From contig NC_019780.1 in assembly GCF_000317615.1 (NCBI RefSeq), positions 2,749,840 through 2,813,839 on the forward strand: DNA of 64,000 nucleotides. The letters run 5' to 3'. Numbering within the stretch: the first letter of the stretch is position 1; every line of letters begins with the position of its first letter. This DNA comes from Dactylococcopsis salina PCC 8305 (lineage in GTDB: Bacteria; Cyanobacteriota; Cyanobacteriia; Cyanobacteriales; Rubidibacteraceae). Positions 28,170 to 58,497 of this stretch are shown piece after piece. Under the pieces are notes generated by a model. The model ran no database searches. It saw nothing but the letters and a program-made list of their open reading frames with translations, and was not told where the DNA came from. The position numbers were made by a program, and so were the translations under genes.

Positions 28170-29444
28170 GTGTCAAAGTTTCATCCGTTATTACAAGAAA
28201 ACTCGCCCTCTCTCAATCATCAAAAACTCGCTGATATATTAACCAATTATGACAATATTTTAATCATTCAAGATTTAGATGGGGTTTGTATGGAGTTGGT
28301 TAAAGACCCCTTAAACCGCACCATTGAACCGAAGTATGTAGAAGCAACAAAAGCGTTTTCTGATCAGTTTTATGTGTTAACAAATGGTGAACATATTGGC
28401 AAACGGGGCGTTAATTCGATCATCGATCGCGCCTTTGGTGATGCTGATTTTGTTCACAAAAATTCCCTTTATCTTCCAGGTTTAGCGGCGGGTGGTGTCC
28501 AATGGCAAAACCGAAAAGGAAATGTCTCTCATCCTGGGGTTACGGAAAAAGAATTAGCATTTTTAGCCACTGTTCCTCAACGCATTCGAGAACAATTAGA
28601 ACAGTTTTTTAAGCAGTTTTCAGACACTCGATCAAGCGCCGAAATTGAATCAGATATTGAAGCCTCAATTTTAGATAATATGGCTTCTCCTACTGCAAAT
28701 CTCAACACAATTTATGATCGATTAAAGACGAATCCTGAACGCTATTTCCAGTTACAAAAAACAATGGCACAATTGATGGAAACGTTACTCAGCGAAGCCC
28801 ATCAACAAGGCTTAACCGATTCCTTTTTTGTTCATTATGCCCCCAATTTAGGACGGGATAAAAACGGGAAAGAAATTTTACGTCCAGTGGAAAAAACAGA
28901 TTCAGGAACAACTGATTTCCAGTTTATGATTCGTGGCGCAATCAAAGAAGCGGGTGTCTTATATCTCCTCAATTATTATTACTATCAACGGACTGGAAAC
29001 TATCCCCTCGGAAAAGATTTTAATGTTCGTGATGCGCCCAATAATTACTCAGAATTACTGCAATTAGTCAAGAATAATTTTGATTTTAATTTGATGCCAA
29101 TTCTCATCGGAGTTGGTGATACAGTTAACAGCAGTGTTACCGAAATCAATGGCAAAATTGAAGCAAGAAGAGGAGGAAGCGATCGCGCTTTTCTGCAATT
29201 AATCCAAGACATTCATCCCAATAATATTGTTGTCTATATTGATAGCAGTGGGGGAGAAGTCAAAAACCGTAAACCAGTTCGCATTGAAACCACACCCAAC
29301 GGAGAAGCAAAGGTAACAGAAACGCCCACTGATCCACGAGATATCAATGATCCACTGACTTTAAACCTAATTTTCCCTCGCGGTCATTCTGAATATACAG
29401 CCTTTTTCCGTGACGTGGCGACGAAAAAACTCAATCGTAACTAG
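28170..29444 (+). CDS. stpA: Glucosylglycerol 3-phosphate phosphatase
   Basis: Removes phosphate from glucosylglycerol phosphate in the last step of glucosylglycerol synthesis, the main compatible solute of many moderately salt-tolerant cyanobacteria. The 424-aa protein has the HAD-like start LIIQDLDGVCMELVKDPL (about 33-50), VLTNGEHIGKRGV, LYLPGLAAGGVQWQ and a late GVGDTVNSSVTE loop. These agree with StpA of Synechocystis as I remember it. GTG start with AAGGAG. The partner ggpS is not in the window. The stop codon TAG is formed at the junction with an inserted repeat element (see 29444). Confidence 0.92.
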   Translation: MSKFHPLLQENSPSLNHQKLADILTNYDNILIIQDLDGVCMELVKDPLNRTIEPKYVEATKAFSDQFYVLTNGEHIGKRGVNSIIDRAFGDADFVHKNSLYLPGLAAGGVQWQNRKGNVSHPGVTEKELAFLATVPQRIREQLEQFFKQFSDTRSSAEIESDIEASILDNMASPTANLNTIYDRLKTNPERYFQLQKTMAQLMETLLSEAHQQGLTDSFFVHYAPNLGRDKNGKEILRPVEKTDSGTTDFQFMIRGAIKEAGVLYLLNYYYYQRTGNYPLGKDFNVRDAPNNYSELLQLVKNNFDFNLMPILIGVGDTVNSSVTEINGKIEARRGGSDRAFLQLIQDIHPNNIVVYIDSSGGEVKNRKPVRIETTPNGEAKVTETPTDPRDINDPLTLNLIFPRGHSEYTAFFRDVATKKLNRN

Positions 29445-29613
29445 GGCTTGCTGAAAAAGTCCATTGGTTGGTTTAGTAAGGCAAGAGGCAAGAGGCAAGA
29501 GGCAAGAGGCAGGGTTTTGATGATTGAACAATCAATGAACTTGCATTTTTACCTGAACTTAATCGCCTCAAATCCTTATTTGGTAAAACTTTCAGTTTCC
29601 CAACAGCAAGCCC
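29444..29613. mobile_element. 170-bp inverted-repeat element inserted at the stpA stop codon
   Basis: Ends GGGCTTGCTG (29444-29453) and CAGCAAGCCC (29604-29613) are exact inverted repeats, and TAACTA flanks both sides (29438-29443, 29614-29619). Inside is AAAAAGTCCATTGGTTGG and a GGCAAGA heptamer run (29480-29511). A second, diverged copy lies at 57150-57352. There is no coding capacity. Confidence 0.85.
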
Positions 29614-29619
29614 TAACTA

Positions 29620-29960
29620 AATTCCCCCCTTTCAAAGGGGGGTTAGGGGGGATTGATTGTAACTAATTCAAAGGAAAGTTAAGAGGGGGTTTTTCTAAAA
29701 GTTTCCCCCCCTTTCAAAAGGGGGGTTAGGGGGGATTAATTGTAACTAATTTTTAAAACGCACCTGCGAAGCGCATGGCTTTCACCGATTACTGCGCTTC
29801 TTGTGCGATCGCATATTGAGTGGAGTGCCACGCAAGGTGACTTCTTGGGCGCACGTGCTATTCGCGGTGCTATCCTAGTCTTGCAACTAGCTCCTCAAGC
29901 GTCAATTCCCATCCTCCCGATGGTACTGTAACCTATTATAAACTCGATCGAATCTTTCGG
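29620..29960. repeat. Two C/G hairpins and a repeat-like tail before the rhodanese gene
   Basis: CCCCCCTTTCAAAGGGGGG with TTAGGGGGGATT occurs at about 29624-29658 and again at 29704-29742, each followed by GTAACTAATT. From 29756 to 29940 the DNA holds HIP1-like GCGATCGC and short inverted pieces but no gene I can support. A promoter for 29968 probably lies at its end. Confidence 0.55.
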
Positions 29961-29967
29961 CAAGCCT

Positions 29968-30792
29968 ATGAAATCAGTTTTTTCAGTTAACGAATTATTC
30001 AACCGTCTCGATGATCCGAATCTAGTTGTGATTGACTGTCGCTTTCAACTAGCTGATCCCAGTTGGGGAAAAAAGCAGTATGAAACCCGCCATATTCCAG
30101 GTGCTTTTTACCTAGATTTAAATCAAGATTTATCCTCACCCGTGCAAAAACACGGGGGGCGACATCCTCTCCCTGATTCTGATAGTTTAGGACAAAAATT
30201 GGCGAAAATGGGAATTAATCGCGGAGAAACGCAAGTAATCGCTTATGATGACTCTCGCTGTGCGTTTGCGGCGCGGTTGTGGTGGTTATTGCGATATTAT
30301 GGTCACGATCGGGTTGCGGTGTTAGACGGCGGTTGGAATGCCTGGGAAAAAGCTGGTTATCCCGTTAGCGCCCAGATTCCCCCCTCGAAAACAGGTCATT
30401 TTTCGCCTCAACTGCGAACGGATTGGGTAGTCGATCGAACAGAGGTCAAAGCTCGTCAACAAGACCCAAACACGGTTATTATTGACTCTAGAGACCCCGA
30501 TCGCTATCGTGGAGAAAGAGAACCGATCGATCCAGTGGCGGGACATATTGCGGGGGCGATCAATCTTCCCTGGAAAAGCGTCACCGATGAACAAGGAAAC
30601 ATTTATCCGCCTTCCCAACAACAGAAACGCTGGTTAAACAGTGACTTACCTCTTGGAGAAACACAGGAAAAAATCGTTTATTGTGGTTCTGGTGTTACCG
30701 CTTGTGTCAACTTATTCTCCTTACATTTAGCCTCATTGCCTCTAGGGAAATTATATGCTGGAAGCTGGAGTGATTGGTGTTCCTATTCCTGA
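29968..30792 (+). CDS. Rhodanese-type sulfurtransferase
   Basis: Transfers sulfane sulfur from thiosulfate or 3-mercaptopyruvate to an acceptor. The 274-aa protein has two rhodanese domains: an inactive first one (1-130, with VIDCRF and RHIPGAFYLDL) and a catalytic second one (150-274, with IIDSRDPDRYRGE and the active-site loop CGSGVTAC). The CGSGVTA loop type is shared by mercaptopyruvate sulfurtransferases, so either substrate is possible. Its last 10 bases overlap cbiO on the other strand. No functional link with the neighbours is evident. Confidence 0.92.
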   Translation: MKSVFSVNELFNRLDDPNLVVIDCRFQLADPSWGKKQYETRHIPGAFYLDLNQDLSSPVQKHGGRHPLPDSDSLGQKLAKMGINRGETQVIAYDDSRCAFAARLWWLLRYYGHDRVAVLDGGWNAWEKAGYPVSAQIPPSKTGHFSPQLRTDWVVDRTEVKARQQDPNTVIIDSRDPDRYRGEREPIDPVAGHIAGAINLPWKSVTDEQGNIYPPSQQQKRWLNSDLPLGETQEKIVYCGSGVTACVNLFSLHLASLPLGKLYAGSWSDWCSYS

Positions 30793-57140: not shown

Positions 57141-57149
57141 CTTTACAAA

Positions 57150-57352
57150 GGGTTTCCTGAATAAAACTGAAACCTTTACCCAATGAGGCTTTAAGGCTCT
57201 TAACCCCTCAAAAAAGTGCAAGGAAATTGAACGCTCAATAGTGAAAACCCTGCATCAAAACTTTGAAATATTACCGATTAATCAACCCTCTTGCCTCTTG
57301 CCTTTTGCCTCTTGCCTTACTGAACCAACCAATGGACTTTTTCAGCAAACCC
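57150..57352. mobile_element. 203-bp inverted-repeat element at the hppD stop codon
   Basis: GGGTTTCCTGAA (57150-57161) and TTCAGCAAACCC (57341-57352) are inverted ends with one mismatch. TACAAA flanks both sides (57144-57149 and 57353-57358). In reverse orientation the interior matches the element at 29444-29613 (TCCATTGGTTGGTT, a GGCAAGA heptamer run, then a GGTTTTGA-like part). It carries no gene. Confidence 0.82.
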
Positions 57353-58446
57353 TACAAAGAACTGTCAAATTGTTCTCTTTCAATGGCTTCAAATAAGGCG
57401 CGAAAATTGCCCTCACCAAAGCCCTGAGCGCGATCGCGCCGTTCAATGAGTTCAAAAAAGAATGTCGGTTCGGCGAAAATGGGCTTAGTAAAGATTTGTA
57501 ACAATAAGGGATTTCTCCTCACAGAAGCGGTTAAATCGGGTGCTTCACAATCCACTAACACTTGTGCTTGTTTGATTTTTTCCCATTCTGGTTCTGTCAA
57601 AGGAAGCTCAGAAAAACGTTCCTTGAGTTCGGTGTAATAAGTGTTAGGAACGCTTAAAAAAGAGATTCCCCTCTCTTTTAACTTTATGGTGGTTGTCGCC
57701 ACATCAGAGGTACTTAAGGCAAGATGTTGAATGCCAGCGCCACGATTATAATCAATAAACTCCTGAATTTGGGAATTATCAGAACTCGGTTCATTAATGG
57801 GAAATTGCACTTCCCCATCGGGATCAACTAATACCTGTGAGTGTAAGCCCGATCGAGGCGTTTCGATGGAAAAGGCTTGTTTCCGTTGCCAACCAAAAAC
57901 CTTCTCATACCACTGTACCGTAGGCGTTAAAGCCCCTCTCGCCACATTTAAAACCAGATGATCAATTCCAGTAAAGAATAACCCTGAACTTGATTCCGTT
58001 TCAGGAGGAGACTTTTCCACCCATTTCGGTTGAGAGGGAAGTAAGGGGGTAATTCCCTGACGCTCAACTAAAGTGTGAATTAATCCTGTTACCCCCAATA
58101 TTTGACACCATCGGAGACAGCCTTTTTCCGTCTCCATTTTTTGTAACGGCTGTAATAAAGTGACATCTGGGGTGAGAAAGTTCGACAGTTTTTGTGCTAG
58201 TTGGGGAACATGAAAGGTTACTGCTGCCACTCCTGGCGGGTGATTTTGCAGATAATCAGCAATGGGGCTATTTTCATTTTCCGCAGCGTAAAGCACAAAC
58301 ACCGCTTCCCCACTTTTGACCACTTCCATCACTGTATTTTGATTGCGATGAGGTGACGCAACCGATTGAAAGCCCATCTGGGAAACAAACCAGTTACGCC
58401 ATTGGGAAGCATTTTCCACGTAAAAATGAATCTGATCAATCTTCAT
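57352..58446 (-). CDS. hppD: 4-Hydroxyphenylpyruvate dioxygenase
   Basis: Converts 4-hydroxyphenylpyruvate to homogentisate for plastoquinone-type and tocopherol synthesis or tyrosine breakdown. The 364-aa protein has two vicinal-oxygen-chelate domains. The catalytic one provides the iron ligands: H in GIDHLVLNVARG, H in AGIQHLALSTSDV and E in FFELIERRDRAQGFGEGNF. Length and the C-terminal glycine-rich gate fit. ATG at 58446 preferred; the preceding codon is TTG. Its TAG stop is completed by an inserted repeat element. The SDR gene lies 51 bases upstream on the same strand. Confidence 0.9.
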   Translation of the reverse strand: MKIDQIHFYVENASQWRNWFVSQMGFQSVASPHRNQNTVMEVVKSGEAVFVLYAAENENSPIADYLQNHPPGVAAVTFHVPQLAQKLSNFLTPDVTLLQPLQKMETEKGCLRWCQILGVTGLIHTLVERQGITPLLPSQPKWVEKSPPETESSSGLFFTGIDHLVLNVARGALTPTVQWYEKVFGWQRKQAFSIETPRSGLHSQVLVDPDGEVQFPINEPSSDNSQIQEFIDYNRGAGIQHLALSTSDVATTTIKLKERGISFLSVPNTYYTELKERFSELPLTEPEWEKIKQAQVLVDCEAPDLTASVRRNPLLLQIFTKPIFAEPTFFFELIERRDRAQGFGEGNFRALFEAIEREQFDSSL

Positions 58447-58497
58447 CAAAGTCGCATCAGTTTCTTTGGTGTCTCTCCCGTCAGGATACAGTTTTTT

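Follow-up and report, generated by a model that had tools for sequence, protein, structure and literature searches.

The subgroups of the IS5 family duplicate 2-4 or 8-9 bp of target DNA on insertion, and IS5 itself uses the target YTAR. The elements described here agree with that family (NF033578) in that full-length relatives with the same ends and the same target exceed the cut-off of its protein model, but they differ from those subgroups in duplicating 6-7 bp at a target of the form YTANNTAR. In Anabaena sp. 90, 147 MITEs have been described, of which 132 are intergenic and 15 lie in disrupted genes (PMC3542288). Like the elements studied here, these MITEs are short, present in many copies, bounded by inverted ends and located mostly outside genes. 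Whereas they do not evidently resemble the inverted repeats of IS elements in that genome, the ends here match a resident IS type, and a preference for stop codons, which is present here, is not mentioned in the parts of that report covered here (PMC3542288). A gene with an insertion at its 3' end has also been described for Microcystis PCC 7806 delta-mcyB, in which IS1634 inserted downstream of a gene coding for an MBL-fold protein, extending the coding region by 80 nt (PMC11448079). The position at the gene end is shared with the case presented here, but the Microcystis IS belongs to another family and lengthened the coding region, whereas the protein is unchanged here. Our search for literature on MITE or IS insertion in stop codons returned nothing that matched, an absence that carries little weight given the thin coverage of subscription journals.

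The element at the stpA stop codon

The DNA analysed here, referred to as the window, is a stretch of 64,000 nucleotides (positions 2,749,840-2,813,839) from the single-contig genome of Dactylococcopsis salina PCC 8305, which comprises 3.78 million bases. It contains stpA, whose product matches the glucosylglycerol 3-phosphatase model TIGR02399 with 524 bits (cut-off 365.5), and an inverted-repeat element at the end of this gene:

28170-29444, plus strand: stpA, glucosylglycerol 3-phosphatase, 424 aa (from the sequence and the TIGR02399 match)
29438-29443, no strand: target duplication TAACTA, left copy, 6 bp (from the sequence)
29444-29613, plus strand: very probably a MITE, 170 bp, without transposase (from the sequence and genome comparison)
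29444-29453, plus strand: left terminal inverted repeat GGGCTTGCTG (inverted-repeat search)
29479-29511, plus strand: heptamer array AGGCAAG, 4.7 copies (repeat scan)
29604-29613, minus strand: right terminal inverted repeat (inverted-repeat search)
29614-29619, no strand: target duplication TAACTA, right copy, 6 bp (from the sequence)

The ends of the element, GGGCTTGCTG and CAGCAAGCCC, are perfect 10-bp inverted repeats; the 12-bp arms returned by the inverted-repeat tool consist of these ends plus the TA of each duplication copy. The TAG stop codon of stpA (29442-29444) takes its TA from the target duplication and its G from the first base of the element. Joining the stpA flanks without the element gives AAC TAA A, as compared with ...CGT AAC TAG in its presence. 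A preliminary description of this DNA had proposed that the element entered the stpA stop codon with a 6-bp duplication of TAACTA, and that its first G turned the stop from TAA into TAG; the joined flanks and the other members of the family support both proposals. The insertion had also been called harmless, which holds for the StpA protein, as it is unchanged, and for the protein only. We consider it likely that the insertion at stpA is neutral.

The element is short, lacks a transposase, has inverted ends and a flanking duplication, occurs in dispersed copies and shares its ends with an autonomous element, as is typical of MITEs. It is very likely that 29444-29613 is a non-autonomous MITE with the ends of an IS5-type IS, and that the stop codon was rebuilt from TA and the G of the element. 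Its RNA fold-back, calculated with both duplication copies included, is strong for the two strands (z -3.5 and -3.9), and the single ORF of at least 60 aa in the region (72 aa, 29448-29666) extends beyond the right end. A scan for promoters and terminators gave zero sites inside the element, 29400-30000 gave no hit in Rfam at E values up to 1, and blastn of the element against 72,556 plasmid records gave no match.

The family and its IS5-type relatives

When the own genome (G000) was searched with the element at the DNA level, 77 matches were obtained, several of which are pieces of one copy. The same search matched 10 of 40 relatives, many of them via the heptamer array or one end alone, and the array part alone was matched in G017, G006 and G032. 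The end pattern, with up to three mismatches, occurs at 94 + 101 = 195 places in the genome, as compared to 12 + 12 = 24 places for the reversed pattern. The copies examined derive from 120 fetched loci and the window, and the end places are those among the matches listed (100 of 195). In 58 members, the ends are immediately flanked by an exact duplication (46 of 6 bp, 11 of 7 bp and one of 8 bp), and it is for this exact match that the set of 58 was chosen; for a further 55 left ends in the fetched loci, none of the right ends tried gave an exact duplication. In size, 56 of the 58 members range from 169 to 437 bp and two measure 1661 and 1663 bp, and each contains between 0 and 28 GGCAARA units. 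The target consensus of the 58 members is YTAATTAR: base counts along the 46 duplications of 6 bp are T 39, A 43, A 37, T 31, T 45 and A 45, the base after the duplication is A or G in 48/58 members and the base before it C or T in 41/58. When partners were shuffled among members, the 6 bp were still identical in 14% of cases (1598/11414) because TAATTA is common; the duplication is other than TAATTA in 37 of the 58 members.

A second member lies in the window and likewise provides the G of a TAG stop codon:

57150-57352, minus strand: second family member, 203 bp, with duplication TTTGTA at 57353-57358 and 57144-57149
57352-58449, minus strand: glyoxalase-domain gene, 365 aa, whose stop codon (57352-57354) contains the second member

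Remnants of an IS5-family transposase are present in the two full-length elements of the own genome (1661 and 1663 bp; flanked by TAAGTA and TAATTA). One remnant matches NF033578 (transpos_IS5_1) with 298.7 bits (cut-off 275), the other being 98% identical to it. The transposase ORFs of these elements comprise 365 and 380 aa, as compared with 517 in G017, and the remnant protein was matched in 11 of 40 relatives. In G017, which is another genome of the order, a 1663-bp element with the family ends is present in all three loci fetched, in two of them with an exact duplication (TAGGTA and TATGTA). The TATGTA copy (L313), which is itself located within a stop codon, codes for the 517-aa transposase, with 481.7 bits against NF033578 (cut-off 275). 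The first 17 bp of the window MITE, GGGCTTGCTGAAAAAGT, are identical at one end of the G017 IS5-type elements and agree at 15/17 and 16/17 positions with the two ends of the own-genome full-length elements; past the ends, the 40 bases that were compared on either side bear no visible likeness. The common ends suggest that the copy at stpA was moved by an IS5-type transposase acting on such ends. Copies which we assume to be ISAs1-like (L093 and others) were rejected as the parent, as their ends differ. Separately, one full-length IS of the parental type (L286, 531-2192) was found within an ORF, which we take to resemble a group II intron protein.

Placement of the copies relative to gene ends

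For each of the 58 members, the flanks were joined minus one duplication copy and ORFs of at least 90 aa were called. As a control, the same 6-mers were located in 364 kb of the own genome (15 spaced stretches plus the window), with element junctions excluded. A stop codon is overlapped by 26 of the duplications, while 25 are intergenic and seven lie within an ORF; from the matched 6-mers, 2.64, 15.6 and 39 would be expected, respectively, together with 0.7 at starts. The stpA insertion, which the preliminary description treated as a single event, thus belongs to a group of 26 insertions at stop codons within the set of 58. If the ORF limit is set to 60, 120 or 150 aa instead, 27, 23 and 23 insertions overlap a stop, as against 3.2, 2.6 and 2.4 expected. 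When the following base was matched as well (4710 control counts, sites with a shared motif being counted once per element), the stop expectation is 2.93, divided into 1.56 for genes that read into the left end and 1.37 for those that read into the right end of the element; the observed numbers are 22 and 4. The host gene therefore reads into the left end in 22/26 stop insertions (p 0.0005), and gene-side junctions at stops are found at 24/58 left and 6/58 right ends (p 0.0002). Stops are hit by 12/21 TAATTA duplications and by 14/37 others, and in all 14 of the latter the gene lies at the left end. The stop is preserved at the same residue in every one of the 26 cases: in 11 the duplication contains TAA, and in 15 the stop is formed by TA and the next base, which after insertion gives TAG in 14 and TAA in one.

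A Pfam scan of 20 of the 26 host ORFs gave matches for 19. For 11 of the 20 ORFs, the matched region comes to within one position of the profile end and within 25 residues of the C-terminus, so that at least 11 of the gene ends are natural rather than truncations. For the host gene coding for methionine gamma-lyase, the match extends to residue 163-165 of 166 in 7 of 8 relatives, the eighth being without a match. Beyond the own genome, G007 is the one relative rich in copies, of which nearly all measure 209-211 bp; 34 rows have an exact duplication, and removal of one row that covered two adjacent copies leaves 33. Six of these 33 insertions are at stops, as compared to 3/35 TANNTA control sites (p 0.06, with a small control of 40 kb), and outside ORFs there is no stop excess (6/27 against 20%, p 0.46). 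The left-type end faces the gene in four of the six. Single stop-codon cases were found in G035 and for the IS of G017. Since the G007 excess is not significant and only single cases are seen elsewhere, the strong stop pattern rests on one genome. In G007 we also observed two adjacent MITE copies in opposite orientation with one 6-bp TACCTA between them (L350, G007:C4:103000-105500), an arrangement that would result if one copy had integrated next to the duplication of its neighbour.

The element is of a known kind; its preference for stop codons is unusual and unexplained. The target is about YTANNTAR (best TAATTA), of which 6 and at times 7 bp are duplicated. It ends in TA followed by A or G and so resembles a TAA or TAG stop whichever strand is read, while G is the first base of the element. 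At a stop, TAA is therefore kept in the duplication or the stop is rebuilt as TAG, leaving the protein unchanged. The stop-shaped motif contributes to the stop hits, yet it is already accounted for in the matched control. By replacing the stop of a gene with one of its own, the element could spread without damage to host proteins, and the question of targeting or selection arises because stops are hit more often than nearby sites at which an insertion should do no more harm.

Selection alone, that is, random insertion over the target motifs with stops as the tolerated places, is a candidate to which we give somewhat less than an even chance. The strong depletion within ORFs, from 39 expected to 7, would reflect the loss of most insertions inside genes, and the retention of the same-residue stop in all 26 cases as well as the expected share of stops among the non-ORF insertions of G007 are in line with it. 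Selection alone should, however, leave sites 1-60 bp past the stop, which should be equally harmless, filled to a similar degree; there, 4 insertions are found with 2.86 expected, as compared to 26 with 2.64 expected at stops (p ~1e-5). The next interval, 61-150 bp past the stop, is enriched too (8 against 2.86), as selection would have it, but for all sites up to 150 bp past the stop the comparison is still 26 versus 12, with 2.64 and 5.72 expected (p ~3e-6). Farther than 150 bp downstream of a stop, 2 insertions were found with 2.6 expected, and where only 5' ends are near, 11 with 7.3 expected. As the 61-150 bp sites are raised too, gene ends in general are favoured; stops still stand out within 150 bp. 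Nor does selection account for the one-sided orientation (22/26, and 14/14 for duplications other than TAATTA).

For what remains, our leading but tentative suggestion is that part of the stop excess comes from a bias of insertion towards gene ends. It is possible, albeit unlikely, that the IS5-type system goes further and prefers stop codons as such, with the left end on the side of the gene and a cue beyond the DNA motif. Such a cue might, for example, come from the DNA state at the 3' ends of genes undergoing transcription and translation, and the element would then be a stop-codon-seeking transposon with ends shaped for the rebuilding of stops. Should the bias arise at insertion, it would represent a new kind of target choice.

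Differential retention is improbable. It assumes that copies at stops are kept since the loss of their left end would remove the stop, whereas copies in intergenic regions are eliminated by deletion. This would favour left ends on the gene side, matching the 24/58 left against 6/58 right junctions, and the identity to the nearest copy (91.4% at stops and 93.8% in intergenic regions) points in the direction of older copies at stops, with p 0.12. It predicts, on the other hand, more stops at left ends without an exact duplication, which represent remnants and decayed copies, whereas 16/55 of these and 24/58 of the intact ones are at stops, both being raw junction counts in which truncated genes and natural ends are not separable. 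The intact right ends and duplications of the 26 stop copies are likewise unaccounted for by retention.

That TAACTA occurs on both sides of the stpA element by chance, or belongs to the element itself, is hardly conceivable. The same hexamer does directly follow nearby copies of a different repeat (29660 and 29743), but other members are flanked in the same register by a wide variety of duplications, and as part of the element TAACTA would be needed at both ends of most members, whereas it is seen in 4/58. An origin of the element from IS1634, which a transposase gene of this type adjoining a copy of the MITE left end (L036) might suggest, can be dismissed almost entirely, as the IS1634 copies in G002 are bounded by an inverted repeat of their own and the IS1634 end in the own genome lies directly against the left portion of a MITE copy that is broken off there. 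None of the IS1634 copies examined has GGGCTTGCTG ends; they carry their own inverted repeats instead. The other part of the broken MITE copy was not found in the L036 locus. L036 (530-2170) holds the sole full-length IS1634 transposase gene found in the own genome, and two of the three full-length IS1634 transposase matches in G002 contain an internal stop codon.

The stpA 3' end in related genomes

The 80 relatives listed, which stem from a named collection, are cyanobacterial records. A comparison of stpA 3' ends had been proposed in the preliminary description, with TAACTAA as the empty site in relatives lacking the element. Relatives of this kind were found: in the four readable genomes of the same genus, the element end is absent within 300 bp of the stpA 3' end. 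The exact empty site TAACTAA was not seen in these four, because the last codons of stpA differ; their stop is TAA in three and TAG in one. In G004, a fifth genome of the same genus, only a fragment of stpA is present.

Downstream of stpA, a block of about 110 bases (window 29815-29925) is nearly identical in the G001, G003, G004 and G005 loci, where in G005 it is interrupted by the contig end. This block, which has no hit in Rfam at E values up to 1, is a candidate small RNA or leader. A second type of repeat, approximately CCCCCCTTTCAAAGGGGGGTTAGGGGGGATT, is present in two copies 3' of the element (29624-29653 and 29706-29735). With up to four mismatches, 15 copies of this repeat were found in 364 kb of the genome, six of which are followed by TGTAAC within about 10 bases.
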